This document shows positions 5,196-22,588 of a stretch of 22,750 bases of DNA, piece by piece. The DNA is from a virus. A model generated the notes under the pieces. It was not told the DNA's origin. It saw nothing but the letters and a program-made list of their open reading frames with translations, and ran no database searches. Position 1 is the stretch's first letter. Each line of letters opens with the position of its first letter. The translations under genes were made by a program, and so were the position numbers. The stretch lies in IMG/VR virus record IMGVR_UViG_3300010885_032749, positions 1 to 22,750 of that record; one strand, 5' to 3'.

Positions 5196-5203
5196 TATTT
5201 ATA
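5196..5203 (+). promoter_or_regulatory. Putative phage late promoter element TATTTATA
   Basis: TATTTATA followed by TAAAAAA in a 40-base gap, starting 18 bases before the GTG of the 1494-aa gene. The same element occurs in three other intergenic gaps of the window. No obvious -35 box. A perfect 10-base palindrome (AGTTGCAACT, 5181-5190) lies just upstream. The promoter role is inferred from recurrence and position. Confidence 0.45.
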
Positions 5204-5213
5204 TAAAAAATAC

Positions 5214-8200
5214 GTGGCTAAAAAAACTATAGATCTAAATTCTAACCCAAGAAATTTAATGGTTCAGAAAACAACCGTAGATGGAGATAGTATGACTTCA
5301 CCAGTAGTTGCAATTCAACCAACAGCATCTTATGTATCTGCACCAATAGTAAAAGACCTTAATGTAGCTATAACACCATTTGGATTAAGTAACAATACAA
5401 TAGGAGCATATCCTAACGACACAGTTCAATTAAACATTACAAATGCAATTGATCAATACTTAGAGACAAATTATAGAATTGATACATATGTTTTAGATCA
5501 ACAGCTAGTAACATTAGATCCAGAAAAAGATTTAAGTGATTTGGGTTACATTTCTGGTAAATATAAAACCGAGTATAGCTTTAATAGAAACTTGTTAGGA
5601 TCGGGTGATGCTCACAAATTACAAATACAAGAGATAAGTGCTGATGGATTAGAGATAAGAGTTATTCCTATTTTATCTTCTAAATATGATAACGTAAACT
5701 TCTTATCATTCTTTGAAAGTGGTTTTTTTAAGTTATCTAAAACACAAACACTTACGAACTTATTTTTATACAAAAGTGCAAATACTCCAATTAGAGTTTT
5801 TGATTACGTACAAGATAAATTTACTTATACAACATCACCTTATAGTATTATCTTTAAGTTAAATGCTCCTGTATCAGCTGATGTTAATATAGGAGATGCA
5901 ATTTGGTTAAGCCAACAAGTTAGTGATAGTATATTGGATGAAATTACAATTATTCCTCCTAAATCTAGATTAAAAAAAATTAAGATAGCAGGTCCTAATT
6001 GGGATGCGGTTAATAAAGAAAGTGTAAACTCATCAACACAATATAAAGATTGGGATGATCTACTATCTACAAATACTCAAACATCACAAGACATAGTTAA
6101 TATGTTATTGAGTGGTTCTTCTATTGAAGGTATACCATTAAATATAGATTACAAATTGTTTGAGAATCATACACATTTTGGATCAGCTGCTGAGAGATTA
6201 CACAACTTTAAATATAAGCTACAGCTAATAGAAAACTATACAAGTAGAATAGGAGAACTTACAACAGGACTAACTGGATTACCAAGTAGTAGTGTATCGA
6301 GTAGTATATACTTTCAAAGTAATGTGATAGATGCACAAAACAAGCGTGCTGCAACATTAGGTAGTTTAGATGGGTATGAAAAGTATTTGTATTATGAATC
6401 AAGTAGCTATGTATCAAGTAGTTATGGTGAATTCTATCCTACTACATGGCCAAAAAGAACAAGCACAAAACCTTATTTAAATTATTCAGTATCCTCTTCT
6501 CAAGTTGAAGACTGGTTTGATGGAATAATTACATCAGCAAGTATCTTTGATCAAAATAATGATAAAGCCTTGTATAGGTTAATTCCAGCTCACGTTTTAG
6601 AAGATCAAAACAATCAAGATTATGTTCTATTTACACAAATGATGGGACATTATTATGATTTAATTTTCAACTATATAAAAAGTATTCCACAAGTCTATGA
6701 TAGAAATCAAAGTATATTAGAAGGATTTAGTAAAGAGCTCGTTTATCATATATCTAAGAATTTAGGTTTAGACTTTGAAAATGGTAACACGTTAGAAGAG
6801 CTTTGGAGCTACACATTAGGAACAAATACAACAGGATCTTTATCTTCAACATATGGTATATCAACTGAAGATAAAACCAAAGAAGTATGGAAACGTATTG
6901 TAAACAATTTACCACATTTACTAAAAACTAAGGGAACTGAAAGAGGTGTAAGAGCTTTAATTAATTGTTTTGGTATTCCTCAAACTATCTTAAGAATAAG
7001 AGAGTATGGCGGTGCTGAACCTGAATTTGACACTAAGACAGATTTAGTATATGAAAGATTTAACTACTCTAATACAGTAGGATATAATGGAAAGACTTCT
7101 GGACAGGTAGCTCAATTAATACAAGTTCCATGGACAAACTTATCAGAAACTAATTTATTTCCTCTTACAGTAGAAATGCGAGTTAAGATGGCTGTAAGTC
7201 AAAGCAAAACTCAAACTATATTTGAAGTTCCAAATAAATGGAAAGTTCAAGCATACAAGAGTGGTAGTGGTGATTATATTGGTTTCTTTTTGAGTGGTAG
7301 TAGTGGATGGGCAACATCAAGTGTTAGTTCGTCTATCTATAATGGTAATTTTCATAACATTGCTTTAGAGAGAGCAGTTGCAAATGATGGAGCAATTGAT
7401 CAAACATATAAACTTGTAGTAAAAGAAGCTAACTATCAAAAAGTTGTTTCAACAACATCAGCATCCCTTTTTATAAGTACAGCATTAAGCTCATCATATA
7501 ATACATCATTTACAACTAGTGGTAGTTTATGGATTCCTGGCTCAGGCTCATTTGCAGCAAGTACCTCGCAATCTATGACTCTATTATCAGGAAGTATTCA
7601 AGAGTTTAGATACTGGACAACAGCATTACAAGATTCAATATTAGATAATCACACTTTAGCACCAACAAGCTATCAAGGAAATTCAAATGATACATATACT
7701 GGAAACACATCAAGCTATAGTGATTTAGCATTTAGATTGTGTTTAGGTTCAGATAATAAGAAAGTAAATTTAGCTACAACAGCAAGTATAGTATCACAAC
7801 ATCCTAATCAAAACATATTAACATTTGGTAATGGAGCTTTTAAAAGTGCATCATTTTATAACTACTCAGGATCTTATTATAATCCTATAGTAGAAATACA
7901 CTCTTTAGAATGGCCTGATTTAGGAGGTAATAGAAGTATAAGTAATAAAATACGTATTGATCAAACATCGTTAGTAAGTGATAATCAATTATATAGAAAC
8001 AATAGTGCTGAAAGATCATTAACAGATAATTATCCTATTGAAAGTTCTCGTTTAGGAATTTACCTATCACCAGTCAATGAAATAAACCAAGATATTGCAG
8101 AACAATTTGGAGGTATAAGTATTGATGATTATATAGGTAATCCGGCTGATGTAACTTTAGATCATTATCCTGATTTAGAGAAATTACAATATGCTTACAA

Positions 8201-9698
8201 TAAGAAATATGGTGCTCGAAATAATCCACAAAATTATATAAGATTAATTAAGCATTATGATGCATCTTTATTTAAGTTAATAAAGAAGTTTGTACCTTAT
8301 AGAGCAAACACACAAGTAGGCTTAGTAATAGAACCAGATATCTTACACAGAAGCAAGATTTCTAATGCATTACCTACATATGAAGAATTACAATATTCTT
8401 CATCCTTAGATACAAACATATTTTCAGTAGGTGGATTTGTAGAAGATGCAGGAGGAGAACCATTCAGAGACTTTTCAGGATATGTTCCTCAAGGAGTAGT
8501 TGAAGAAAGTCCTTTGCAAATTGAAGGTATAACACAAGTTGTTGTAGATGGAACACAGCAACTTCCAATGATAGCATTATCAGGAAATGCAAATGAGTAT
8601 AATCAAGTAGGAATAAACGATTTACCATCACAGTCAGGAAGTTTAACTGGTCTAATAGATACAGCTATAACTGCATATGGACGTGATACAAGAGTATTAG
8701 GTTCTCAATATGTATTTATGACATACAACAGATTATCAGTACCAGCTATAACAAGTTCTTATGGATCAGCATCTTATGGAGTCTCAGCTTACGTAGCACC
8801 AGAATCATCTACATACTTTATGGTTACAAGTAGTAGATATGATTATCATGAAGCATTAAATCCAGTTATTATGGATTCAAGATTAAGCCAAAGAGCTAAT
8901 AATGCAAGTAGTATGTATGATGTTGATATTTATGGTAGTAAAGCTTTTGATAAGTTCAGTGCTTATGCAACTGGAGCAACATCAGCATATGTTACAACAT
9001 ATACTTCATCCAATGCAATCTATGAAAATAATTGGACATCTAATTATGGTTTAGTATTAGAAGCACCTTATGAAGCTACAACAGCTCAATATTACCCTAT
9101 ATATAACACACAATCTTTTTGGTCACTAACATCATCATTAGGACTATTACACACAGCATTATTAACACCAACAGCATATAACGTACCAACAGCATATTCT
9201 AAAATACCAGCCTTTTTTTATAAAGCAGACGATATAAAGACACATAACTATATTTACAAAATCACTTACACAATTAACTCAAATACTGCAAACGATGCTC
9301 AAGTAGTATTCTCTTATGGTGATTTGAATTCGAGTTTAACTGATTCATACGCAGTAGTATCAGGAACCACCTATACAAACACCATTGTAACAAAAGCAAA
9401 TGGTCCATGGTTAGGACTGACAGTAGCTTATAATGGAATAGATGCTGATTCTTATTTCTGGTTTAAAAACATTAAAGTAGAATGTTTAAATTATAGAGCA
9501 AATGTGCAAGATTTTCATTTGAATGATAGTTATGGTATGAGGAATGCTCGTTATGATGGATGTAAAATGACATCAGCTGACTTTAATGTAGATAGTCCTG
9601 ATACAATAGATAAAGGACCAGTAGTAAAAATAACAGTTGGAGGAGGAAAACAATTATCTGTTCAACCAAGTGTTCGAGGAAATTTACAAATAAGATAG
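5214..9698 (+). CDS. Giant tail/baseplate protein with P2-gpI-like segment, LamG-like and jelly-roll modules (1494 aa)
   Basis: The largest gene in the window. It starts at GTG; an in-frame TAA at 5193-5195 and no ATG after it leave GTG as the only good start. Residues ~475-600 include MMGHYYDLIFNYI and LPHLLKTKGTERGVRALIN, then FGIP and REYGG. This pattern resembles P2 gpI-type tail proteins (LP-x-x-x-K-x-KGT-x-x-x-x-R, then G-[VI]-P), which sit in the baseplate. Residues ~645-805 form a LamG/concanavalin-like fold (FHNIALERAV, IQEFRYWTTALQDS). Around 944-1100 is a block (SRLGIYLSPVNEINQDI; FVPYRANTQVGLVIEP) that looks like a core tail segment. A jelly-roll-like module (~1340-1424, ending YFWFKNIKVEC) precedes the tail (FNVDSPDTIDKGPVVKI). 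Ser-rich linkers join the modules. Baseplate or tail-tip function with sugar-binding insertions is inferred; the gpI relation is from motif memory only. Confidence 0.85.
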   Translation: MAKKTIDLNSNPRNLMVQKTTVDGDSMTSPVVAIQPTASYVSAPIVKDLNVAITPFGLSNNTIGAYPNDTVQLNITNAIDQYLETNYRIDTYVLDQQLVTLDPEKDLSDLGYISGKYKTEYSFNRNLLGSGDAHKLQIQEISADGLEIRVIPILSSKYDNVNFLSFFESGFFKLSKTQTLTNLFLYKSANTPIRVFDYVQDKFTYTTSPYSIIFKLNAPVSADVNIGDAIWLSQQVSDSILDEITIIPPKSRLKKIKIAGPNWDAVNKESVNSSTQYKDWDDLLSTNTQTSQDIVNMLLSGSSIEGIPLNIDYKLFENHTHFGSAAERLHNFKYKLQLIENYTSRIGELTTGLTGLPSSSVSSSIYFQSNVIDAQNKRAATLGSLDGYEKYLYYESSSYVSSSYGEFYPTTWPKRTSTKPYLNYSVSSSQVEDWFDGIITSASIFDQNNDKALYRLIPAHVLEDQNNQDYVLFTQMMGHYYDLIFNYIKSIPQVYDRNQSILEGFSKELVYHISKNLGLDFENGNTLEELWSYTLGTNTTGSLSSTYGISTEDKTKEVWKRIVNNLPHLLKTKGTERGVRALINCFGIPQTILRIREYGGAEPEFDTKTDLVYERFNYSNTVGYNGKTSGQVAQLIQVPWTNLSETNLFPLTVEMRVKMAVSQSKTQTIFEVPNKWKVQAYKSGSGDYIGFFLSGSSGWATSSVSSSIYNGNFHNIALERAVANDGAIDQTYKLVVKEANYQKVVSTTSASLFISTALSSSYNTSFTTSGSLWIPGSGSFAASTSQSMTLLSGSIQEFRYWTTALQDSILDNHTLAPTSYQGNSNDTYTGNTSSYSDLAFRLCLGSDNKKVNLATTASIVSQHPNQNILTFGNGAFKSASFYNYSGSYYNPIVEIHSLEWPDLGGNRSISNKIRIDQTSLVSDNQLYRNNSAERSLTDNYPIESSRLGIYLSPVNEINQDIAEQFGGISIDDYIGNPADVTLDHYPDLEKLQYAYNKKYGARNNPQNYIRLIKHYDASLFKLIKKFVPYRANTQVGLVIEPDILHRSKISNALPTYEELQYSSSLDTNIFSVGGFVEDAGGEPFRDFSGYVPQGVVEESPLQIEGITQVVVDGTQQLPMIALSGNANEYNQVGINDLPSQSGSLTGLIDTAITAYGRDTRVLGSQYVFMTYNRLSVPAITSSYGSASYGVSAYVAPESSTYFMVTSSRYDYHEALNPVIMDSRLSQRANNASSMYDVDIYGSKAFDKFSAYATGATSAYVTTYTSSNAIYENNWTSNYGLVLEAPYEATTAQYYPIYNTQSFWSLTSSLGLLHTALLTPTAYNVPTAYSKIPAFFYKADDIKTHNYIYKITYTINSNTANDAQVVFSYGDLNSSLTDSYAVVSGTTYTNTIVTKANGPWLGLTVAYNGIDADSYFWFKNIKVECLNYRANVQDFHLNDSYGMRNARYDGCKMTSADFNVDSPDTIDKGPVVKITVGGGKQLSVQPSVRGNLQIR

Positions 9699-9716: not shown

Positions 9717-9724
9717 TATTTATA
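9717..9724 (+). promoter_or_regulatory. Putative phage late promoter element TATTTATA
   Basis: TATTTATA followed by TATAAAAA in the 43-base gap before the homing endonuclease gene, beginning 25 bases before the ATG. The rest of the leader is A-rich (ACAACAACAA), with no Shine-Dalgarno sequence. It is the same element as at 5196, 12208 and 18558. Confidence 0.45.
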
Positions 9725-10314: not shown

Positions 10315-11040
10315 TTGGGCTATTTAGATAATTCTGCGGTTACCGTAGATGCAATTTTAACAAACAAAGGTCGCGAAGTATTAGCGAGTGGTGGTAGATT
10401 AAATATCACAAAGTTTGCATTAAGTGATGACGAAATCGATTATGATTTATGGAATCCAGCACACACTTTAGGAACAAACTATTATGGAGCAGTAATTGAG
10501 AATATGCCAATATTAGAGGCATTACCTGATGAAACACAAATGCTTCGTTATAAATTAGTAACTTTACCAAAAGATGTAATTGGAATACCTGTAATCAGTG
10601 TATCACCAGAAGCAATTACTTTTACATCACTAAAACAATCAGTAACTGTAACACCAGCAACATTAAATTTAGCAGGTGGTAATACTACAATGGGCTACAC
10701 AGTGATTCTATCTGATGATACTGTTGCAACCTTAACTGTAGCTCCTGATGGTGCTGTATCAGGACAAGGTGGCTCAACAATGGATGTATTAAATCCAACC
10801 AACTTCCTTGATGACGAGATTACAACTATGACCACAGCTGGAACAACAGTTGTAAAGGTTGGTACTAAATTTGTCATAAAAGCAAAAGCTCAAGCTAATA
10901 CAACTACAATAAAACGTGCATTACTAACTATTATTGGAAATGAAACTGGTGGATTTAAAACAATAGCTATAACTGTTAATCCAGCTGGATTCTTAGTACA
11001 AGATATTGGAGTTACTGCAACACCTTTAGGAGGACTTTAA
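10315..11040 (+). CDS. Conserved phage structural protein with N-terminal GYLDN motif (241 aa)
   Basis: Starts at an unusual TTG: an in-frame TAA at 10300-10302 and no ATG between leave it as the only good start, and it yields MGYLDNSAVTVDAILTNKGRE. From memory, this N-terminus recurs in structural-cluster proteins of large environmental phages. Residues 1-90 form the conserved block (FALSDDEIDYDLWNP; ENMPILEALPDETQMLRYKLVTLP). Residues ~90-235 look like a beta-sandwich of bacterial Ig type, with SVTVTPATLNLAGG, then TTMGYTVILSDDTVATL and a final FKTIAITVNP. No catalytic motif is present. It follows the homing endonuclease and precedes another structural gene by 31 bases. Its function in the virion is unknown; a tail or neck component is possible. 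Confidence 0.8.
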   Translation: MGYLDNSAVTVDAILTNKGREVLASGGRLNITKFALSDDEIDYDLWNPAHTLGTNYYGAVIENMPILEALPDETQMLRYKLVTLPKDVIGIPVISVSPEAITFTSLKQSVTVTPATLNLAGGNTTMGYTVILSDDTVATLTVAPDGAVSGQGGSTMDVLNPTNFLDDEITTMTTAGTTVVKVGTKFVIKAKAQANTTTIKRALLTIIGNETGGFKTIAITVNPAGFLVQDIGVTATPLGGL

Positions 11041-12167: not shown

Positions 12168-12205
12168 AGAAGCCCTTCAGTAATTGGAGGGTTTCTTACT
12201 TTCCA
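12168..12205 (+). terminator. Rho-independent-type terminator hairpin
   Basis: Left arm GAAGCCCTTCA (12169-12179), loop GTAAT, right arm TGGAGGGTTTC (12185-12195). This gives 11 pairs including two G-T wobbles, extendable by one A-T. It is followed by a moderately T-rich TTACTTTCC. It lies in the longest gap of the window (12110-12219), between two structural genes. The T tract is imperfect, so read-through is possible. Confidence 0.65.
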
Positions 12206-12207
12206 CA

Positions 12208-12215
12208 TATTTATA
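12208..12215 (+). promoter_or_regulatory. Putative phage late promoter element abutting the ATG
   Basis: TATTTATA followed by TAAA directly joined to the ATG at 12220, so the element begins 12 bases before the start codon. The terminator hairpin ends at 12196, leaving only 23 bases for a promoter and no clean -35 region. If transcription starts about 10 bases from the element's centre, the mRNA is leaderless. Confidence 0.5.
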
Positions 12216-12219
12216 TAAA

Positions 12220-13989
12220 ATGGCAGGAGTATTTAAAAGTTTAGATCAATCGGACGTAAGAATAACACCTTTTCGTACCTACAAGTTATGGGCTGAAACT
12301 ATTCCTAGTGGTTCAAACACAGGATCTATATATAGTGTATATAAAGCAGACTACAGTCCAATACCAAACTATTTATTGAATGATCCACTTAACGATAGTT
12401 TTGATCAAGGCAACTCATACTTTGAAGCAAGTGAATATAAAACAGTTAATAACAAGTTTCAACGAGTAGTTCATAGATCAGTTGATCATTTATACTATAG
12501 AGACTTCTATATAAACAACAAAGCTTCTTTTGGAAGTGGTAACATAAACAAACAAGATAGATTCTTAGAAGATCAAGCTTATGTTATCAGTATGCCACAA
12601 TCTAAGTTTGGAGAAGCAATATTACCTGGTTCTGTTAAAATAATGTTTAGCTCTTCTATAGGATTTCAAAGCAGTAGTATTAGTAGTTCAAACACTGTAT
12701 GGACAGTAATTGATGATAGCTTTGGTAATTTAGTAATTTCTGGTAGTGATCAAACACCGTTTAAAACTAATTGGGCTGAAACAGTAGGAGATACAAGTAC
12801 AAACTACTCATCATCAGTAACAAAAACATTAGTTGGTGATTGGCCACTTACAGATTTATATAAATATGTAAATTTAGGACCAGTAAATATAACTGGAAGT
12901 TTTAATAAAGGAATGTGGTTAATGGATGCACTTTATAGTAATGTAAGTGTTGATTTTCCATATAGAGCAACTTCAAGCTTTGCATTACCTAAGGATTTAA
13001 TAGGAGCTTCAATGACATTTACATCAACACTTAGTTCAAGTATAGAAATTAAACCGAGTGTAGTACCTGAATACAATCAAAAATACAATTTTGAAAATGG
13101 TGATTTCACTATTAGTATGATGATGAACTACAGATATATACCAACACAAGCATCTGGAGCAATATTAATAGAAAAGCAAGGACCTGTTGAAGAAATAAGA
13201 GTAGATGAGAATGGAGATATACATTCACAGTTAGTACCAAATAAAGCACCATACAGATTGATATTAACTAAAGATGGTATTTTACGTTTTGAAAGAGATG
13301 GAGGAACTAATAACATATTTGCAATAGAATCACGCTCGGCACTTACTATAAACAATCTTTATCATGTTGCTATAGTAAAGTCAGGATCATTAGTAAAATT
13401 AAGTTATCATAACACAGAAGATCCTTTAATTGACTATAGTTATGCAGCAGGAACTTGTCTTATAGAAGGTAAAGAATGCTCTAATCTATCAAACATATTC
13501 ATAGGCAACTCTTACACACAAGATAGAGGATTTGATGGAATTATAGATAATATAAAAATATATAAGCAAGCTCTTTCTGACAACGATTTACTTATATTAT
13601 ATCGTACTTTGGGTGTAGGAAACTTAAATATTGGTAATGTATTTTATAATCATGGAATGATGACATTAACATCTATTCCATCAAGATTTGGATACGTACA
13701 TTCTGTAGAAAGTAGAGGTACACATACTATTTGGGAAAATGAGATCTCATGCACAATAGGTCCAAATGATTTCGGAATGAGTAGTAATCCTTCATTACAA
13801 GAATATAGTAATACAGAAAACAACTATGTATACAAATCATTTGTAACAAGTTCATTCTTTAAACCATATATAACCACTATAGGATTGTATGATGATTATG
13901 GAAGAATGTTAGTAGTAGGAAAACTAAGCACACCAATACAAACACCAAACAATACAGACACAACATTCATCGTACGTTACGATAAATAA
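12220..13989 (+). CDS. Structural protein with LamG/concanavalin-like domain (589 aa)
   Basis: A predicted tail or fibre protein. I choose ATG 12220 (MAGVFKSLDQSDVRITPF). An in-frame TTG at 12184 would add 12 residues but falls inside the terminator hairpin and before the promoter-like element. Residues ~290-466 form a LamG-type jelly roll: NGDFTISMMMNYRYIP, then ILIEKQGP, a Tyr-His-Val-Ala-Ile-Val strand (LYHVAIVKSG), and the typical ending GFDGIIDNIKIYKQALSDNDL. LamG domains often bind sugars. The last ~120 residues repeat the C-terminal domain of the upstream gene (YITTIGLYDDYGRMLVVGKL). The N-terminal ~280 residues are Ser/Thr-rich beta structure without a recognised fold. It may contact host glycans, but only the fold class is visible. 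Confidence 0.85.
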   Translation: MAGVFKSLDQSDVRITPFRTYKLWAETIPSGSNTGSIYSVYKADYSPIPNYLLNDPLNDSFDQGNSYFEASEYKTVNNKFQRVVHRSVDHLYYRDFYINNKASFGSGNINKQDRFLEDQAYVISMPQSKFGEAILPGSVKIMFSSSIGFQSSSISSSNTVWTVIDDSFGNLVISGSDQTPFKTNWAETVGDTSTNYSSSVTKTLVGDWPLTDLYKYVNLGPVNITGSFNKGMWLMDALYSNVSVDFPYRATSSFALPKDLIGASMTFTSTLSSSIEIKPSVVPEYNQKYNFENGDFTISMMMNYRYIPTQASGAILIEKQGPVEEIRVDENGDIHSQLVPNKAPYRLILTKDGILRFERDGGTNNIFAIESRSALTINNLYHVAIVKSGSLVKLSYHNTEDPLIDYSYAAGTCLIEGKECSNLSNIFIGNSYTQDRGFDGIIDNIKIYKQALSDNDLLILYRTLGVGNLNIGNVFYNHGMMTLTSIPSRFGYVHSVESRGTHTIWENEISCTIGPNDFGMSSNPSLQEYSNTENNYVYKSFVTSSFFKPYITTIGLYDDYGRMLVVGKLSTPIQTPNNTDTTFIVRYDK

Positions 13990-14001
13990 AAACACGTTAT
14001 A

Positions 14002-14400
14002 ATGGCAAAAAGGTTTACAAAGAGACAGGCAGCTGTACGACATGGCTACAGAAGTGGTCTGGAAATGGATATCAATGAAGCACTTGAGGAAAAGGGAATA
14101 GAAGGTGAATATGAAAAACACGTAATCAAGTATACTATTCCAGAATCTAATCACAAATATACACCAGACTTCAAACTACCTAATGGAATCTTTATAGAGT
14201 CAAAAGGTCGTTTTATGTTAGATGATCAAAAAAAGCATATATTAATTAGAGCTCAACATCCTGATTTGGATATACGTTTTGTATTTCAAAATTCAAAAGC
14301 TAAGATTCGTAAAGGATCAAAAACAACATATGCTGATTGGTGCGCTAAACACGGATTTATGTTTGCTGATAAGGTAATACCAGATGCTTGGTTGAAATAA
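14002..14400 (+). CDS. T7-type endonuclease I (Holliday junction resolvase)
   Basis: A structure-specific nuclease that cuts four-way junctions and branched DNA, needed to resolve recombination intermediates before packaging. The match to T7 gp3 is strong along the chain: SGLE near residues 18-21, YTIPESNHKYTPDFKLPNG, IESKG, DDQKKHILIRAQHPDLDIR, and CAKHGFMFADKVIPDAW. The PD-(D/E)XK active-site set is intact: Glu21, Asp56, Glu66 and Lys68, corresponding to T7 Glu20, Asp55, Glu65 and Lys67. Its length (132 aa) is close to the 149 of T7. It starts 12 bases after the structural gene and leads into the primase and Mre11-Rad50 fusion genes, so it opens the DNA-metabolism block. Probably cytoplasmic and dimeric like T7 endonuclease I. 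Confidence 0.96.
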   Translation: MAKRFTKRQAAVRHGYRSGLEMDINEALEEKGIEGEYEKHVIKYTIPESNHKYTPDFKLPNGIFIESKGRFMLDDQKKHILIRAQHPDLDIRFVFQNSKAKIRKGSKTTYADWCAKHGFMFADKVIPDAWLK

Positions 14401-14447: not shown

Positions 14448-15371
14448 ATGACTATAAATCTACTTCAAGTAAAGCATATTATAGATGAGCATTTAGGTTC
14501 AAGCGTACAACATAGGTCTAGTGGTGAGATTACTTATCATTGTCCATTTTGTAACCATCCTAAACGTAAACTTTGTGTGAATCTAAATACACAAAAATGG
14601 CATTGTTGGGTGTGCTCGAGTAGAGGACAATCAATAGGCTCTCTTCTTAAAAAAAGTAGTGCTCCAACACAAACCTTTCAAAAAATAAAGGAGATTTATG
14701 GTGATAATAATTTTAAAGATACAAATAATACAAGAGAGTTAGTAGGATTACCTGAACATTATAAACCATTATGGGTAAATCATAATACACCAGATTACAG
14801 GAATGCTTTACACTATGCTATGAAAGTTAGAAACTTAACTCCATTAGATGTATTAAGGTATGAAGTTGGTTACTGTGAGGAAGGTCCTTATGCTGGAATG
14901 CTTATAGTACCAAACTTTAATGAGAATAATATGATCAACTATTATGTTGGTAGAAGCTATTATGATGGATCAACCATTAAACACAAGAATCCTCCAGTAT
15001 CTAAGGATGTTATAGGGTTTGAGAATCAGATTAATTGGAAACAACCAATTATAATAGTAGAAGGAGCTTTTGATGCAATAGCTACAAAGAGAAATGCAAT
15101 ACCATTATTTGGTAAAAAAATATTAAACAATTTAAGAAGTAAAATACTAACAGAGAAAGTACCTAAACTATATATCGCATTAGATCCTGATGCATTTAAG
15201 GATTCAATTAAAGAAATCGAATATTTCTTAAACAATGGTATAGAGGTTTATATAGTAAAATTATCTGGAAAAGATCCAGGTGAAATGGGATATGAGTTAA
15301 TGGTTGATGCAATTAACAAAGCTCAAAAAGTAGACTTTTTTAGTCTAATACAATTTAAAATGTCATTATGA
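14448..15371 (+). CDS. DNA primase (DnaG-type, zinc finger plus Toprim)
   Basis: Makes RNA primers for lagging-strand synthesis. Residues ~30-60 are a CHC2-like zinc finger (HCPFCNH...WHCWVC; Cys32, Cys35, Cys53, Cys56). Residues ~135-185 match the primase N-subdomain (VGYCEEGPYAGMLIVPNF, then NYYVGRSYY). The Toprim domain shows its acidic metal-binding motifs: IIIVEGAFDAI (~201-211, catalytic Glu) and LYIALDPDAF (~240, DxD). At 307 residues it lacks a fused helicase domain, unlike T7 gp4, so it needs a separate helicase, which is not in this window. It could equally be called a T4 gp61-like primase. Its stop overlaps the next start (ATGA, 15368-15371), implying translational coupling with the nuclease-ATPase gene. 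Confidence 0.92.
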   Translation: MTINLLQVKHIIDEHLGSSVQHRSSGEITYHCPFCNHPKRKLCVNLNTQKWHCWVCSSRGQSIGSLLKKSSAPTQTFQKIKEIYGDNNFKDTNNTRELVGLPEHYKPLWVNHNTPDYRNALHYAMKVRNLTPLDVLRYEVGYCEEGPYAGMLIVPNFNENNMINYYVGRSYYDGSTIKHKNPPVSKDVIGFENQINWKQPIIIVEGAFDAIATKRNAIPLFGKKILNNLRSKILTEKVPKLYIALDPDAFKDSIKEIEYFLNNGIEVYIVKLSGKDPGEMGYELMVDAINKAQKVDFFSLIQFKMSL

Positions 15372-18300
15372 TAAATAAGATTAAAAGCAAACTGAAACAT
15401 GTAGATCATATATTACACGTTTCGGATATCCATTTGAGAAATTGGAAAAGACACACAGAGTTTAAAGAAGTATTTAAAAAATTATTCGTAGCAGTAGACA
15501 ACTTACCTGAAAATAGTATAGTAACGGTTGGTGGTGATATTGTTCATGCTAAGACTGATATGAGTCCTGAATTAATTAAAGTAGTGTCTTACCTATTTAA
15601 TGAATTAGCTGATAGAAGACCTACTGTAGTTATATGTGGTAATCATGATGCTAATTTAAACAACAATAATAGATTAGATGCCTTAACTCCAATAGTAGAA
15701 GCTAACAATCATCCAAATCTATTTTATTTACGTAATTCAGGTTTATTTGAAATTGGTGATGTCTGTATAAGTGTTATGTCTTTGTTAGACTCTGTACAAG
15801 ATTATGTAACAGCTGATAAAATACCAACCGATAAAATATATAAACACAAAATAGCAATGTATCACGGTACTATTGCTAATAGCCAAGTTGATAGTGGATT
15901 ATTTTTATCACATGGATTGGATTGGGACACATTTGCTGGATACGATTTAGTATTGTTAGGTGATATTCATAAAAGACAAGTATTATCAAAACAAGATCCA
16001 ATTATATTCTATCCATTAAGTTTAGTGCAGCAAAACTTTGGTGAGTCCTTTGAAGGACATGGTTATGCTTTAGTAGATTTAACTAATCCAGATAAAATAG
16101 AATATGATTTTCACGATATTAGTAATGATTATGGATATTACACTTTAGATGTGACTGATGGTATATTACCAGATAATTTACCTATAACTTCTAAAACAAA
16201 TGTTAGATTAAGGACAAGAAACACAAGTCCTGCTGAAACTAAGAGAATATTAGCTACAATTAGAAAGCTGTATAAGAATAGTGATGTGATGGTTCAGAAA
16301 CTTGATAAGAATACTGGAAATAAGGATGGTGAATTGTTTGGAGAATCGTTACACCAAGGTGATGTCAGGAATATTCAATATCAAAATCAACTATTAGTAG
16401 ATTATTTAAAACAAAATGATATTGATGAAGAGTCAATAGAAGCGGTATTAAAAATAAACTCTTCTATGAATCAAGCTTTAAATCAAGGAGAGACTGCTCG
16501 CAATGTTATTTGGAAACCTAAGAAATTTGAGTTTAGTAATATGTTCAGCTATGGAGAAAATAATGTAGTAGATTTTAGTAAGTTGGATGGTACTTGTGGT
16601 TTATTCGCTCCTAATCATGCAGGTAAGTCAGCAATATTAGATTCATTATGCTTTTGTTTATTTGATCATTCATTCAGAGCAAGTAAAGCTGAGCAAGTAT
16701 TAAATAGAAAGAAAGATAGTTTTAGTTGTAAGTTTAATTTTGAATTAGAGGGAGTTGATTACTTTATCGAAAAGAAAGCAGTACGTTATGCAAAAGGTCC
16801 TTTAGCTGGTAAACTAAGAGTTAATATTGACTTTTGGTATATTGCAACTGATGGAGAAATTATATCTTTAAATGGAGAACAAAGAAGAGATACTGATAAG
16901 ATTATTCAGACTTATGTAGGAACATTTGATGACTTCATTTTAACTGCTTTATCATTACAAGGTAATAATTCCAACTTTATTGATAAAACACAAGGAGAAA
17001 GAAAAGATCTTTTAGCTAACTTTTTAGACTTAAAGATATTTGACTCTTTATATGAGATAGCTAATAAAGAAAATAGAGTAGCTACAGTATTATTAGAGGA
17101 ATATGCTAAGCAGGATTTTGAGACAAGATTGGGTGATGCTGAAAGTGCTAAAGAGATTAATGAGGAAAAGCATGAAAAAGCTCAAGTAGCTTTGGATGTA
17201 GCACAAGCAGAGTTAGAAGAGTTAAATAAAGAGTTATTGGAGTACAACAAACAATTACAACCCTGTACAGCAGATGGATTAGATATAGCAGTATTAGAAG
17301 CTAATCTAAAAAGCACAACTCTAAAAATATTAATATTAGAGGAATCACGAGAAGCAGCAAAACTTGTATTAAAGGGTTCTAAGGACGTTTTAGAAGTAGT
17401 TAGTAAAGACTTAAAGAATAATAAAGATTCGTTCAATATACCCTTGTATAATGACTATAAAGCCAAATTACAAGAGAAGATTGTATTAGACAATGAGCTA
17501 AACACACTAAAACTAACAGTTGCAAATAAACTGTCTAAAATAGAGAAGTTAAAGAATCATGAGTATGATCCAAACTGCAAATACTGTACATCAAACGTAT
17601 TTGTTAAAGATGCAACTGAGGCAAGTGTTCAGTTAGAGGATGATAAGAAAGTAGTACATGATCTTCTTTTAAAAATTAAAGAGGTTGCTGATTTTATTGA
17701 AAGTAATAAATCAATACAAGATGATGCAATAAGTATTGAAAATCTTATACAACAAAAAAAGGATGCTGAGATTGCTTTTGAACGCAATACTCGTACATAT
17801 GAAGGTTTTGATAAGGATATTAAATTAGAAGATCACCAAATAGCTAAGACTCTTCAACTAATGCAGTTGTATGAAGATAATAAAAGCATATTAAGCAATA
17901 ACAAAACAATTAACGTTAATATTAAAGATGTTAATAACAGAATATCTTTAAAACGTATTGATGTATCTAAGTTAAACAACACTGTGAAAGATTTTCATGG
18001 TAAAGTTAAAGTATGTGAACAAACAATATCAGATTGTGAAAAGTCAATCTTACATATGCAAGAATTATCAGACAAACAAGTAGCTTATGACTTATACTGT
18101 AAAGCTGTTTGTAAAGATGGTATTCCTTATATATTAATAAGTAAAGCAGTTCCATTTATACAACAGTATGTGAATAATATACTAAATCAGATTATTGACT
18201 TTACAGTTGAGTTAGAAACTGATGGTAAAAACATTAATGCATTTATTTGCTATGATGATAGTAAGTGGTTATTGGAGTTGAGTTCTGGTATGGAACGATT

Positions 18301-18553
18301 CTTATCATCTTTAGCACTTCGTATTGCTTTAATTAAGATTACAAACTTACCAAAACCTGATTTTATCGCATTAGATGAGGGATTAGGTGTATTAGATAGT
18401 AGTAATCTAAATTCAATGCACACATTCTTTACTTATATGAAGGATATGTTTAGATTTAATTTGGTGATTTCACATATTGATGTAGTTAGAGACATGGTAG
18501 ATAATATTATTACTATAGATAATGATGGAGAATTTAGTCACATAAATTGTTAG
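15368..18553 (+). CDS. Fused Mre11/SbcD nuclease - Rad50/SbcC ATPase (gp47-gp46-like recombination nuclease)
   Basis: A single chain joining both subunits of the Mre11-Rad50 (T4 gp47-gp46) DNA-end-processing complex, which resects ends for recombination. The N-terminal calcineurin-like phosphoesterase shows DIH (20-22), GGD (55-57), GNHD (91-94), MYHG (~164) and GDIHKRQ (~198). The Rad50-like part starts near 395. Its Walker A reads APNHAGKS (~412-419), with Ala in place of the first Gly. Long coiled coils flank a CKYC zinc hook near residue 737. The C-terminal lobe has the signature LSSGMERFLSSLALRIA (~970-985), Walker B FIALDEGLGVLD and the His-switch ISHID. In T4 and bacteria these are two genes, usually adjacent. 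The start overlaps the primase stop by 4 bases. All catalytic motifs look intact, so the fusion is probably active. Confidence 0.95.
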   Translation: MINKIKSKLKHVDHILHVSDIHLRNWKRHTEFKEVFKKLFVAVDNLPENSIVTVGGDIVHAKTDMSPELIKVVSYLFNELADRRPTVVICGNHDANLNNNNRLDALTPIVEANNHPNLFYLRNSGLFEIGDVCISVMSLLDSVQDYVTADKIPTDKIYKHKIAMYHGTIANSQVDSGLFLSHGLDWDTFAGYDLVLLGDIHKRQVLSKQDPIIFYPLSLVQQNFGESFEGHGYALVDLTNPDKIEYDFHDISNDYGYYTLDVTDGILPDNLPITSKTNVRLRTRNTSPAETKRILATIRKLYKNSDVMVQKLDKNTGNKDGELFGESLHQGDVRNIQYQNQLLVDYLKQNDIDEESIEAVLKINSSMNQALNQGETARNVIWKPKKFEFSNMFSYGENNVVDFSKLDGTCGLFAPNHAGKSAILDSLCFCLFDHSFRASKAEQVLNRKKDSFSCKFNFELEGVDYFIEKKAVRYAKGPLAGKLRVNIDFWYIATDGEIISLNGEQRRDTDKIIQTYVGTFDDFILTALSLQGNNSNFIDKTQGERKDLLANFLDLKIFDSLYEIANKENRVATVLLEEYAKQDFETRLGDAESAKEINEEKHEKAQVALDVAQAELEELNKELLEYNKQLQPCTADGLDIAVLEANLKSTTLKILILEESREAAKLVLKGSKDVLEVVSKDLKNNKDSFNIPLYNDYKAKLQEKIVLDNELNTLKLTVANKLSKIEKLKNHEYDPNCKYCTSNVFVKDATEASVQLEDDKKVVHDLLLKIKEVADFIESNKSIQDDAISIENLIQQKKDAEIAFERNTRTYEGFDKDIKLEDHQIAKTLQLMQLYEDNKSILSNNKTINVNIKDVNNRISLKRIDVSKLNNTVKDFHGKVKVCEQTISDCEKSILHMQELSDKQVAYDLYCKAVCKDGIPYILISKAVPFIQQYVNNILNQIIDFTVELETDGKNINAFICYDDSKWLLELSSGMERFLSSLALRIALIKITNLPKPDFIALDEGLGVLDSSNLNSMHTFFTYMKDMFRFNLVISHIDVVRDMVDNIITIDNDGEFSHINC

Positions 18554-18557
18554 ATGA

Positions 18558-18565
18558 TATTTATA
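18558..18565 (+). promoter_or_regulatory. Putative phage late promoter element abutting the ATG
   Basis: TATTTATA followed by GTAA and then ATG at 18570, beginning 12 bases before the start codon, exactly as at 12208. It fills the 16-base gap after the recombination gene, where expression would need to switch from DNA-metabolism genes to structural genes. This supports a late promoter with a leaderless transcript. Confidence 0.5.
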
Positions 18566-18569
18566 GTAA

Positions 18570-20723
18570 ATGTCATTTCTCTCAACATATAGAATACCAC
18601 TAAGAAGAGGCTACTCCGAAGGAACTTATCTAATTGAAGATACATCAGAGCTATCTCCTGACTATTTTAATGTAGATTTTTTTCCTATGGTACTTGGAGG
18701 AGGTAGGTATGTCATTAAGGTAAAAGGTAATGGTGTAAATATGAGAATGAACTCTACAATAGATGTAGAGATTATTGATGCAGAAGGGCAAAGGATATAT
18801 TGTGAAGTAGTTGATTATGTTGATAGATTCAACAACTATTACATTTCAGTTGATATATATGATATCACAGCTCAAGGATTAGCTACTGCTTACTTTGTTG
18901 GTGAAGCTATAGTTGATTTTAATGGTAATAGAGTTCCAGTAAGCGAACAAGGACAGTATAATGTAAGATGGACAAAACAATTTAATGTATTGCCATTTGA
19001 AAGAAATAATGCTGAACTAATATTTGATGAACCACCTGTAATTACAGTAGCTCAAATAATAATACCAGCAACAGTTACTGCACAATCAAGCGCAAGTGCT
19101 TATAATTTTACAAACATAACTGCAAGTAATTTAAATATTGTAACATCTAATTTTAGTGGATATGATAGGGACTTTGCTTCTAGTGCTGATATATTAGATC
19201 CTAGATTAAAAGCAATAAGAGTTAATCCTCTATCAGAGCCAATGACTATGAATAGTGTTCCAACAGCTGTTAGAACAAATGATCAAGATATTCAACATGG
19301 TAATCATATAAATTATACTTCACGATTTAATACTATTGTACAAGCCTCACAATCGTTCTTTAAAAAAGAACATTTGGGTGGTTACTTTGAGTTTTATGAT
19401 TCTGGAAGCTATCCAAAACAACTTGGTCCTGCATTACCAAATGGAGTAACAGTTTCTGGTAGTATTTGGGAACAATTAGATCATTACAATTCTACTATTG
19501 TGGAGATTGTAAATGATAAGCAAGCAATTATATCAAAACCACTCACTATTATAACGAGAGATGCTAATAATAGGTCGAGAAATACATATTCAACATTTAA
19601 CTATAAAACAGCTAATTTATTTACTGCAAGTATAGCATATGTTCCAACCGATCTATCATTTGTTACAAGCTCAACAGTAAGTCAATCTTATGTAGAGTTT
19701 ACATTCTCAGATTTGAATCCAATAAGTGGTCAAGCTTATAGAATAAGGACTTCCATAAAATCTGGTGCATCAACAGGAGATTATAAAATATTAAACGATC
19801 AGGTAGTTAGTCCAGTAGAGTATTTAACAGATGCACAATACAAAAATGGTCTTAATTATGCAAGACATGAATCAGATTATAGATTAATAGGTTATTTTAC
19901 AACACAGTCACTTATAGACACATATTGGGACTACTATTTAGAAGATAAAACAGGATTTGATATGGTAACTGGATCATTATCTAGTACTAAGATGATCGAA
20001 TCAGCAGTATTACCAGCAGCTTATACACAATCAAGCTTATTGACTACTAAATACAATCAAAACTACTCTAAAGATCAAATATACACATTAGGCTTTTACC
20101 TGACGTTAGATCCATACACTGAACTAGAAGTTTATATGAATAGCGATCCACTTAACGCATATGTTAGTATACCAATGTTGTATCCAAGAGGCTTTAACAA
20201 ATCAGATAATAAAGAAAGACAAAGATATGGTGGTTCTCAGAGTAGATTTGGAAAGTATATTGGTAAAATAAAAAACGATAGACCAACTAGTAAATACTAT
20301 GGAAAGGTTTTATTCGATTTTGAAACTGATGGAAGTGGATATGGACAACCAGTATTTAGATCAAGAGTTATAGATGAAATGTCAGGAGTAACTGGAAGTA
20401 GTTGTATTGGTGAGGTGAGTATAAAACCATATTTGATAAATGGTTTCACACCCAACATTGTACAATATGCAGTACCATTACCAGCCGAGTTTATTGCAAC
20501 AACAGTTTTATCACAATCTATTGATTTTAAAATAGATTACTTTGATTACACAGGAAGACAATCTGAATACGTTACTTTTTTAGATGATGTAATACTAAAC
20601 TTAAAAGGAGAGATACCATCTAATACATGTCAAGATGATAAATTATATTTCTACTACAATTCAGGATTTGCAGTAATACCAGGACCGCCACCATTGCAAG
20701 ATGGAGTGTTTCTACCAGGATAA
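18570..20723 (+). CDS. Tail/structural protein (717 aa)
   Basis: A predicted virion protein beginning MSFLSTYRIPLRRGYSEGTY. The N-terminal ~170 residues are a beta-rich block (VIKVKGNGVNMRMNSTIDVEIID; YISVDIYDITAQG; YNVRWTKQFNV; ELIFDEPPVITV) that resembles N-terminal attachment domains of large environmental-phage tail proteins, from memory. The middle is Ser/Thr-rich beta structure (VTGSLSS; SSTVSQSYVEFTFSDL). The C-terminal third contains a jelly-roll-like set (FKIDYFDYTGRQSEYVTFLDDVILNLKG) and ends in a Pro/Gly tail (PGPPPLQDGVFLPG). No enzyme motif is visible. It follows the Mre11-Rad50 fusion by 16 bases and precedes another structural gene by 14. A tail fibre or baseplate connector role is inferred only from composition and neighbours. 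Confidence 0.82.
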   Translation: MSFLSTYRIPLRRGYSEGTYLIEDTSELSPDYFNVDFFPMVLGGGRYVIKVKGNGVNMRMNSTIDVEIIDAEGQRIYCEVVDYVDRFNNYYISVDIYDITAQGLATAYFVGEAIVDFNGNRVPVSEQGQYNVRWTKQFNVLPFERNNAELIFDEPPVITVAQIIIPATVTAQSSASAYNFTNITASNLNIVTSNFSGYDRDFASSADILDPRLKAIRVNPLSEPMTMNSVPTAVRTNDQDIQHGNHINYTSRFNTIVQASQSFFKKEHLGGYFEFYDSGSYPKQLGPALPNGVTVSGSIWEQLDHYNSTIVEIVNDKQAIISKPLTIITRDANNRSRNTYSTFNYKTANLFTASIAYVPTDLSFVTSSTVSQSYVEFTFSDLNPISGQAYRIRTSIKSGASTGDYKILNDQVVSPVEYLTDAQYKNGLNYARHESDYRLIGYFTTQSLIDTYWDYYLEDKTGFDMVTGSLSSTKMIESAVLPAAYTQSSLLTTKYNQNYSKDQIYTLGFYLTLDPYTELEVYMNSDPLNAYVSIPMLYPRGFNKSDNKERQRYGGSQSRFGKYIGKIKNDRPTSKYYGKVLFDFETDGSGYGQPVFRSRVIDEMSGVTGSSCIGEVSIKPYLINGFTPNIVQYAVPLPAEFIATTVLSQSIDFKIDYFDYTGRQSEYVTFLDDVILNLKGEIPSNTCQDDKLYFYYNSGFAVIPGPPPLQDGVFLPG

Positions 20724-20737
20724 TAAACAAAAATAAT

Positions 20738-22588
20738 ATGGCATTTATAACAAAAGCATTTGATTTAATATATAAAAGATTTGGACCAACAGGTAGCATT
20801 TCTGAATATTGGTTTGATACAACAACATCTATACCACGAGTAGCAAACTCTTTTCTTAACTTTCCTGATGACACACTTACAAACAAGTACGTTACAACAA
20901 GAGACTCAGCAAGCAATGCCTATTATAGTGCATTACCTTGGGGATCAGCAGCAGGAGATTTTTTATGGAATATAAGCACACCATCTTGGTCTTATCAGGA
21001 CCAAACAACACTTATTCCAAATGGTCATGGTAGTGATGTGCAAGTTGACAGAGTATGGTCACCATCATATGTTACTAAAAGCTTTAATTCACAATTTCAA
21101 ACAGGTGGTACAAACTTAGGGGTAACGATTACTGGTAGTTATGCTGTGACCTCTAGTTGGATAATTATAGAACCTAAACTCGATAATGTAAGTCTTTTTT
21201 ATTATACTCACACTTATAATGGTTCTCCACAATATCCTGTAAATGTATCAGGATTTTCTGACACAGTTGCATATAGAGTGTCCTATCCAGCACTTAACTC
21301 CTTTTCAACATCATCAATTGATGGAGCTTATTTCGATCAAGGAGGTGGCGCTGCTATATCGAGAACGTCAATAATAAAGTCCTTAACAACAGCATCAGTA
21401 TCTGGTTCAGATAATTCTGCAATAGGATTAAGACTTATGACTGAAGCTCTAAAAGCAAGAAGGCTCTACTTTCCGATATTCGCGAGCGGAAGTGGCACAA
21501 CAAGAGGTACAGATTACTGGTTTAAAAAATCAACTGGATACAGAGCAAATGAAATATTCACAGATAACGGAGGAATATATAATGTAAAGTTTAGTCTCAA
21601 GAGAAAAGTACCATTTGGATATTATCCAGATACAAATAGTTTTATGACAGCCTTTATTCATAATGTATTACCACAAATACCATCATCATCAGCAAGAATA
21701 CCTGGAGCAGATGGTTGGTATCCACCAGCAAACAATATTGTGACAATAGGTAATGCATATAACGGAACACCTGACATGACCTTTGTAGATATTCAAACAG
21801 GATATTATGTAGAAAAGTTTAACTTTAACCTAATACAATATGGCTATCCAGCACAACTTTGTTTGGAGGTTAGTGGATCATTGAGCGATAGTACATATTT
21901 TGGTATAATAATAGATGAATTTGAAATGTGCAAAGTAGGCGTAACAACTGATGTAAGATTTATTAAACCAACAAGTATTGCTACAACAGTAGTTGGAATA
22001 CGACCAAGGTGGTGGTTTACCTCCTGGTGGTGGTGGATAAAACACAATGAAATGATAAACAACGAAACAATAAGAAATTGCACCAAGCCATTTCCAGCAA
22101 TACAAGGACTGGTCAATGAGCATGCTTTAGGTAAAATTATTATAAAGAATGTTTATCAAGGATGGCAAGGTGAGAGTATTAATCAGATTAGAGGGAAACA
22201 TGAAGATAATCCTTATTCCTTAAGAATAGGAATGCCATCAACTGATAAGCAACTTAAAAATGATGCTATCTATTTTATATTACATTATCTATCTTTTAAC
22301 CCTTTAACTAAGGATGTGGAGATGCGTGAGATTATACCATATAGAAACACAGAAAGAATATATATTGGTCAATCTATTGACGAGAGTACTTATAAAAACT
22401 ATACACTATTTGTTGATGGAAATGCAGTAGTTGATGACATTTACTTAAAAAGACACGATACAATAAAAGACATTCCATTAGGACAAATAATAATAAATCT
22501 TATAGATAAAGTGGAAAAGCTGCAATTAGAGATAGCTCAACTAAAACGTCAAACAATTAACAACCCTATTTATACAAAAGAACAATAA
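20738..22588 (+). CDS. Tail fibre-like structural protein (616 aa ORF; probable frameshift or two genes fused near 22000)
   Basis: One uninterrupted frame, but probably two proteins. Residues ~1-420 are Ser/Gly-rich beta structure of tail-fibre type, with a jelly-roll-like end (CLEVSGSLSDSTYFGIIIDEFEMCKVG). At ~424-435 the frame reads the implausible PRWWFTSWWWWIK. A +1 shift instead gives DQGGGLPPGGGG and a stop at 22038-22040, a typical Gly/Pro phage C-terminus. An in-frame ATG at 22052 would then start a separate 178-residue protein (MINNETIRNC) ending in a heptad coiled coil (IIINLIDKVEKLQLEIAQLK) after FVDGNAVVDDIYLKR. The coiled-coil end is like that of tail-fibre trimers. The start follows the previous stop by 14 bases with an A-rich leader. 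The ORF itself is certain; the product boundary is not. Confidence 0.75.
   Translation: MAFITKAFDLIYKRFGPTGSISEYWFDTTTSIPRVANSFLNFPDDTLTNKYVTTRDSASNAYYSALPWGSAAGDFLWNISTPSWSYQDQTTLIPNGHGSDVQVDRVWSPSYVTKSFNSQFQTGGTNLGVTITGSYAVTSSWIIIEPKLDNVSLFYYTHTYNGSPQYPVNVSGFSDTVAYRVSYPALNSFSTSSIDGAYFDQGGGAAISRTSIIKSLTTASVSGSDNSAIGLRLMTEALKARRLYFPIFASGSGTTRGTDYWFKKSTGYRANEIFTDNGGIYNVKFSLKRKVPFGYYPDTNSFMTAFIHNVLPQIPSSSARIPGADGWYPPANNIVTIGNAYNGTPDMTFVDIQTGYYVEKFNFNLIQYGYPAQLCLEVSGSLSDSTYFGIIIDEFEMCKVGVTTDVRFIKPTSIATTVVGIRPRWWFTSWWWWIKHNEMINNETIRNCTKPFPAIQGLVNEHALGKIIIKNVYQGWQGESINQIRGKHEDNPYSLRIGMPSTDKQLKNDAIYFILHYLSFNPLTKDVEMREIIPYRNTERIYIGQSIDESTYKNYTLFVDGNAVVDDIYLKRHDTIKDIPLGQIIINLIDKVEKLQLEIAQLKRQTINNPIYTKEQ
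21993..22040 (+). other. Alternative +1 frame ending in Gly/Pro tail (possible true end of upstream tail gene)
   Basis: In the +1 frame, after a TAG at 21990-21992, the sequence reads LEYDQGGGLPPGGGG then TAA at 22038-22040. A single-base shift around 21993-22002 would join the tail protein to this ending. The GGT-repeat codons give glycines here but tryptophans in the long frame. Confidence 0.5.
22052..22588 (+). other. Possible separate 178-aa coiled-coil tail protein start within the 616-aa ORF
   Basis: ATG at 22052, in the frame of the long ORF, 11 bases after the alternative stop at 22040 and behind an A-rich leader (AACACAATGAA). The product would be MINNETIRNCTKPFPAIQG onward, ending in a coiled coil. 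It is listed as an alternative reading of the end of the 20738-22588 gene, not as an additional gene. Confidence 0.45.

Follow-up and report, generated by a model that had tools for sequence, protein, structure and literature searches.

The DNA stretch analysed in this work (hereafter the window) is a virus record of 22,750 bases (IMGVR_UViG_3300010885_032749, positions 1 to 22,750) that carries tail-type structural genes together with genes for an Ig-domain protein, a GIY-YIG endonuclease, a T7-type endonuclease I, a primase and a fused SbcD/SbcC-like protein. On its + strand, the gene at 12220..13989 starts with ATG and encodes a 589-aa protein with a Laminin-G/ConA-like domain (Pfam PF13385, E 2.7e-10), a probable virion surface protein whose N-terminus (MAGVFKSLD) is conserved among orthologues from the methionine onward. 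Further downstream, the ORF called at 18570..20723 (+) is a probable structural gene for a 717-aa protein of unknown function, and its N-terminus is likewise conserved from the methionine in many orthologues. The ORF called at 5214..9698 (+) has a GTG start and encodes a probable tail/baseplate protein of 1494 aa, with orthologues in 10 contigs. An immunoglobulin-like domain (PF13895) marks a probable virion protein at 990-2810. The T7-type endonuclease I lies at 14002-14400 (PF05367, E 3e-61), in a phage whose relatives carry T4-type virion genes. At 15368-18553, an SbcD-like metallophosphoesterase and an SbcC-like ATPase are apparently fused in one 1061-aa ORF, whereas gp47 and gp46 of T4 are separate.

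Comparison of the window at the DNA level yielded no close named phage. The nearest by protein are Microcystis phage Mel-JY01 (38.8%, with the SbcC-like protein of the window) and Flavobacterium phage immuto (40.4%, with its primase). Eleven long contigs among the IMG/VR relatives were examined over their full length. One long relative encodes a T4-type prohead protease, gp19, gp25, gp32 and PhoH, and a family A DNA polymerase is found in several clade members. The phages of this clade are presumed to infect Bacteroidota.

Position of the TATTTATA box in the window

The 8-mer TATTTATA lies at 12208..12215 and at 18558..18565 (+), in both cases exactly 12 nt before an ATG (12220 and 18570, respectively), as described in the initial annotation. 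Also as described there, the first of these boxes stands just past a terminator-like hairpin. This hairpin (12168..12196, +), followed by a T-rich tail and matched by a terminator scan, has a predicted RNA fold of -19.7 kcal/mol (z -2.2) and ends 11 nt before the box; orthologues of gene 12220 carry a comparable GGAGGGTTTC hairpin at the same side. The second box sits in the 16-nt gap after the SbcC-like gene. The remaining + strand copies that precede genes are found at 5196..5203 (18 nt from GTG 5214, with an A-rich leader of ~6 nt), at 9717..9724 (25 nt from ATG 9742, with an A-rich leader of ~13 nt) and at 22567..22574, inside the end of the 20738 gene and 22 nt before the ATG of the next gene (22589). 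Gene 9742 encodes the GIY-YIG endonuclease and is followed by the 10315 and 11072 genes. All of these + strand copies (5/5: 5196, 9717, 12208, 18558 and 22567, at 18, 25, 12, 12 and 22 nt) precede genes, and each of them (5/5) has AA at positions 11-12 counted from its first T. At the two closest starts, the profile of leadered promoters presented below predicts that this AA (12219..12220 and 18569..18570, +) marks a transcription start at the ATG, the second A of the former pair being the A of the start codon. The linkers run into the start as TAAAATG and GTAAATG.

The total number of TATTTATA copies in the window is 7, compared with 7.2 in shuffled sequences. Since this raw count is at chance level, counting alone would dismiss the box, and the informative feature is its position. 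The same count is what speaks for a reading in which the two 12-nt copies are chance A/T-rich sequence and genes 12220 and 18570 are expressed by read-through from upstream promoters. Such a reading is very improbable, as the distance of exactly 12 nt is kept across many orthologues while the flanks drift and a terminator-like hairpin stands upstream of the 12208 box.

Enrichment and spacing among relatives

No other 8-mer is as over-represented as TATTTATA (163 copies vs 9.1 expected) in the coding-strand intergenic DNA of ten close contigs and the window, where its reverse complement TATAAATA is present only 7 times. Chance A/T richness was rejected as the cause of TATTTATA on the grounds of position, strand and conservation. 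Genes found behind the boxes include those for terminase, portal, sheath, tube and tape-measure proteins. In immuto, 15/24 boxes fall in the virion half of the genome, which holds 77/210 genes (p 0.007). The initial annotation had named a lack of enrichment before structural genes elsewhere as one outcome that would refute its proposal; enrichment was found instead. In the literature searched, TATTTATA has not been reported as a phage promoter.

Box-to-start distances were collected in eight of the ten close contigs plus the window, for the 133 boxes that have a start no more than 45 nt away, with start codons picked by rule unless N-terminal conservation or annotation supports them. None of these boxes lies at 8-10 nt, 33 lie at 11-13 nt (8/22/3 at 11/12/13 nt, with a peak at 12), five at 14-16 nt and 95 at 17 nt or more. 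By comparison, 55 8-mers of the same composition, taken together, leave no gap (42 at 8-10 nt and 39 at 14-16 nt), and under their proportion the probability of finding zero boxes at 8-10 nt is about 7e-5. Giving one vote to each gene family (75 families) does not change the two-humped shape of the distribution. The 11-13 nt class represents about 21-25% of the boxes, or about 36% when weighted by gene family. Its starts are all ATG (33/33), and GTG appears in 5/95 starts of the leadered class. A motif search at a fixed -12 offset, as initially proposed, thus brings out a sharp class at 11-13 nt, but the offset is confined to that fraction of boxes; a universal -12 offset for all genes was rejected, most boxes being 17-42 nt away. 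In immuto, where genes at record positions 10527 and 142474 are of the 12-nt class, the starts annotated by the depositors themselves account for 2/3 of the 12-nt starts. In G014, a 131 kb contig from a more distant relative, most coding-strand boxes before starts belong to an 11-14 nt class.

Down to a protein identity of about 50%, orthologues of genes 12220 and 18570 retain TATTTATA exactly 12 nt before the start, with four linker bases that vary freely (taaa, gaaa, taca, gtaa, gtag, gtat, gcat and tgaa). When orthologues of 12220 are aligned to the same first residue, most keep the 12 nt and the others have TATTTATT or a slightly shifted start; several orthologues of the two genes that lack the exact word carry TATTTATT one base further off. 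These linkers also bear on a mechanism known from late poxvirus promoters (TAAATG), where polymerase slippage adds a 5' oligo(A) leader. Slippage on an A-run overlapping the ATG could similarly add a leader here, given that many linkers end with AA or AAA before the ATG and that A-rich leaders suit Bacteroidota ribosomes. However, linkers such as gtag, gtat and gcat have no A-run before the TG except the A of the ATG itself, so an A-run is not a conserved requirement, and we give slippage very little weight.

Other families change class between relatives. A 744-aa family has its box 23-26 nt from the start in eight contigs but 12 nt from it in two. In the 5214 family the distance is 17-22 nt, or 12 nt in G003, and in orthologues of the 10315 gene it is 23-36 nt. 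Orthologues thus switch between 12 and 17-26 nt, and the spacings in between are mostly skipped.

Predicted transcription start and absence of a -35 element

After removal of duplicate flanks, 102 promoters were retained, of which 21 have their box at 11-13 nt and 76 at 17 nt or more. Their -35 region is flat, with at most about 0.2 bit per position and no -35 element among the 102 promoters, which bears out the initial view that no conventional -35 box fits. In the 76 leadered promoters, A reaches 93% at both position 11 and position 12 from the first T, and AA at 11-12 is present in 67/76 of them vs 23/70 boxes that are not before a start; sequence beyond this AA is not conserved. In the leaderless class, it is the A of the ATG that occupies positions 11-13, mostly 12. 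The A conserved at this place in both classes would be the transcription start, defined to about 1 nt. Since the sigma-A boxes of Flavobacterium lie at -12 to -5 (PMC9723704), position 12 corresponds to +1 in that register. In the T4 late register, where the first T is at -13 (PMC2988020), the start would fall one base later, on the U of the AUG, and the register must consequently be of the sigma-70/sigma-A type.

The initial claim that the mRNA starts at or next to the ATG is consistent with this register for a subset of genes, in which the predicted start coincides with the ATG; elsewhere a leader would be present. Genes 12220 and 18570 share sequence hallmarks of leaderless genes: a -10-type element at a fixed distance, a predicted +1 on the start codon, and no upstream ribosome-binding site, the promoter box taking up that space. 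Their mRNAs are likely leaderless or nearly so. A start 3 nt or more upstream of the ATG, giving a short leader, is unlikely. Start-site choice can vary by several nucleotides, the register is itself deduced, and a leader of 1-2 nt is compatible with the data. Yet transcription from known -10 elements begins 12-13 nt from the first base of the element, against the 8-9 nt that a start 3 nt earlier would entail. In addition, ATGs are absent from the 8-10 nt range, and positions 11-12 hold the conserved AA.

Translation context and a second promoter type

Shine-Dalgarno (SD) enrichment is absent from the clade (10%) and from immuto (5%), the control being 16%. Both have an A-rich stretch at -11 to -14, as Bacteroidota do, and the same A-rich upstream context is known from F. 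johnsoniae (PMC6847099). This context, in a clade without SD sequences, is what could make TATTTATA at -12 an A/U-rich translation signal that keeps the ribosome site open and has no role in transcription. Several features make this quite improbable. The box has a fixed sequence of 8 bases and is followed, 3 nt further on, by a fixed AA, while the Bacteroidota translation signal is A-rich and differs from TATTTATA. The box also occurs at 17-42 nt from starts, after terminators and upstream of a structured untranslated leader RNA, and mostly before virion genes, and A/T words of the same composition show neither its enrichment nor its spacing gap. Finally, a second, two-part promoter has the same 12-nt class.

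This second promoter type, GTTG-N20-TAnnTT (often CGTATATT), occurs in the same phages (relatives G001, G005 and G006, and immuto). Its spacer is 20 in 36/55 cases, and 12 nt is again the most frequent distance between its first T and the start (14/55). Its layout matches that of the Bacteroidota sigma-A promoter (TTTG at -33 and TAnnTTTG at -7), whereas TATTTATA has neither the -33 TTG nor the terminal TTTG. Since no ribosome site could be confused with a promoter of two parts, leaderless placement appears to be general in this phage clade rather than special to late transcription. The suggestion of an unusual coupling between late transcription and leaderless translation is therefore not upheld, the host-like promoter having the same 12-nt class. 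In immuto, GTTG-N20-TAnnTT favours the non-virion half (31/38), and the virion half contains 15/24 of the TATTTATA boxes vs 7/38 of the host-type promoters (p 0.0008). On account of this bias between genome halves, we call TATTTATA a putative late promoter and, more tentatively, GTTG-N20-TAnnTT an early one.

Mel-JY01 shares TATTTATA (14 vs 3.2 expected) and has SD sequences (38% vs 5%). Its boxes are mostly 31-51 nt from the start, with none at 11-13 nt. Compared with the clade, this combination of SD sequences and long spacing indicates that one promoter serves genes with leaders and genes without, depending on the type of translation. Mel-JY01 also encodes ribosomal protein bS21 (PP395634.1, 22231-22392), a gene seen in this Microcystis relative only. 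A phage bS21 was rejected as the cause of altered initiation, since the gene belongs to that relative and not to the clade.

A candidate gp55-like sigma factor

Searches of the relatives with the gp55 families phrog_234 and phrog_12791 gave no match at E up to 1, pairwise phmmer with T4 gp55 gave none either, and family scans of the proteins of one relative included no sigma among the matches listed. The Sigma70 region 2 profile gave weak matches, the best of which (E 3e-4) is to a conserved protein of about 240 aa; a search for sigma region 4 found no match. This protein is present in G001, G002, G003, G006, G014, immuto (gp118) and Mel-JY01, and at least 580 stretches in IMG/VR encode it. 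With hhalign, a colinear alignment was obtained between its profile and gp55 (E 2.7e-4, probability 42%), a likeness that is weak in sequence; the value for phrog_234 is E 0.5. In the profile alignment, gp55 F86 and Y97 pair with F84 and Y95 of the candidate; the two gp55 residues belong to its base pockets (PMC7892883).

The AlphaFold2 model of the candidate (mean pLDDT 78, pTM 0.52) has structural matches almost only among sigma factors. Superposition on gp55 in 7d7c gives Z 9.8 over 130/137 residues at 5.5 A, a score of moderate significance for a protein made of helices, and superposition on E. coli sigma-E gives Z 9.4 over 91 residues at 2.6 A. With Foldseek by itself, no PDB entry matched at E up to 0.001. 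On balance, the model and the profiles make a gp55-like sigma with a region-2 fold a plausible identity for this protein, which is a good candidate for the reader of TATTTATA. The T4-type clamp (PF02916) was found in the T4 control and in none of eight relatives, although a diverged clamp is possible, and a search with the clamp family phrog_223 gave no match.

Proposed mechanism and relation to known systems

Taken together, the fixed box, its spacing and its conservation argue that TATTTATA is almost certainly a promoter. It would be the core of a phage promoter serving mainly virion (late) genes, with one -10-like box and no -35 element. The reader would probably be the host RNA polymerase core associated with a phage sigma limited to region 2 and similar to T4 gp55 (immuto gp118 or a homologue), and transcription would begin at the A conserved 11-12 nt after the first T. 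Most genes would then have a short A-rich leader beyond the start site. In roughly a quarter of genes, including 12220 and 18570, the start codon would lie on the start site, leaving 0 or at most 1-2 leader nucleotides, and these leaderless mRNAs would be translated via recognition of their 5'-terminal AUG. Because the ribosomes of the presumed Bacteroidota hosts work without SD pairing, loss of the leader would cost little, and leadered and leaderless forms could interconvert between orthologues. From sequence, we infer the late timing of this promoter, leaderless translation, the exact start site, the identity of the sigma and the host. A phage-specific, late-type single-box promoter with the start codon on the start site in roughly a quarter of cases is likely to be the best explanation overall.

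T4 late promoters consist of one 8-bp A/T box, TATAAATA, placed roughly a helical turn before the transcription start and without a -35 element (PMC2988020). TATTTATA is likewise a single 8-bp A/T-rich box without a -35, and the resemblance to the T4 system (gp55, gp33 and the gp45 clamp) extends to the virion genes served and to the region-2-fold sigma candidate. By contrast, the box differs at 2/8 positions, the T4 word itself is not enriched (7 vs 163), a T4-type clamp is undetected and several members have a family A DNA polymerase. Leaderless placement of T4 late promoters is not described in the literature examined. The proposal of a T4-type late promoter thus holds for the single box and the virion genes but not for the box sequence. 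Despite the T4-like working, the different box and the undetected clamp led us not to file it as a T4 late promoter; our verdict is a putative late promoter system, T4-like but not T4-identical, with frequent leaderless starts.

Other systems share part of this layout. Late mRNAs of the Thermus phages phiYS40 and P23-45 are leaderless. These phages likewise have single extended -10 promoters for middle and late genes (PMC7403470), but they differ in their hosts, in the use of the host sigma and in the box. The cyanophage late promoter NATAAATA is also a T4-type single box before late-gene homologues (PMC2984593), with another box sequence and no link there to leaderless starts. In Deinococcus-Thermus, leaderless mRNA similarly arises where a -10 element keeps a fixed spacing to the ORF, as in about one third of D. 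radiodurans genes (PMC12340547). The promoter is a cellular housekeeping one in that case, whereas here the box is phage-specific and the hosts are presumed to be Bacteroidota.

In published Bacteroidota data, leaderless mRNAs amount to 5.5% of the F. psychrophilum transcriptome (PMC9723704), 3.7% of B. thetaiotaomicron leaders are under 10 nt, and 87% of F. johnsoniae leaders are over 10 nt (PMC6847099). Such rarity (about 4-6%) probably tempers the idea that hosts translate the phage leaderless mRNAs efficiently. More tentatively, an abundant clade of Bacteroidota phages may combine its own single-box late promoter and a diverged gp55-like sigma with systematic leaderless mRNAs, several-fold above the level in hosts, in which leadered and leaderless states are interchangeable and spacings of 14-16 nt are avoided. 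If so, leaderless use could get phage mRNA translated when infection alters ribosomes or initiation factors. The analysis also names a putative late promoter and a candidate late sigma for a very common, unstudied group of T4-related phages. Besides, it offers a natural and well-defined set of predicted leaderless genes in a phylum without SD initiation, where leaderless mRNAs had been considered rare. The cultured member, Flavobacterium phage immuto, makes both the promoter and the leaderless claims testable.

Finally, a conserved and apparently structured leader RNA of about 65-85 nt, with the core GGCC..GGGAAGTAGGC..AACCA, lies between a TATTTATA box and the next gene in the G004, G006, G009 and G003 contigs and in immuto (137879-137965). 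An Rfam search gave no match for it. The gene that follows is mostly 'MPSWKK'-like, and compensatory changes affect 6/14 predicted pairs in the five sequences.
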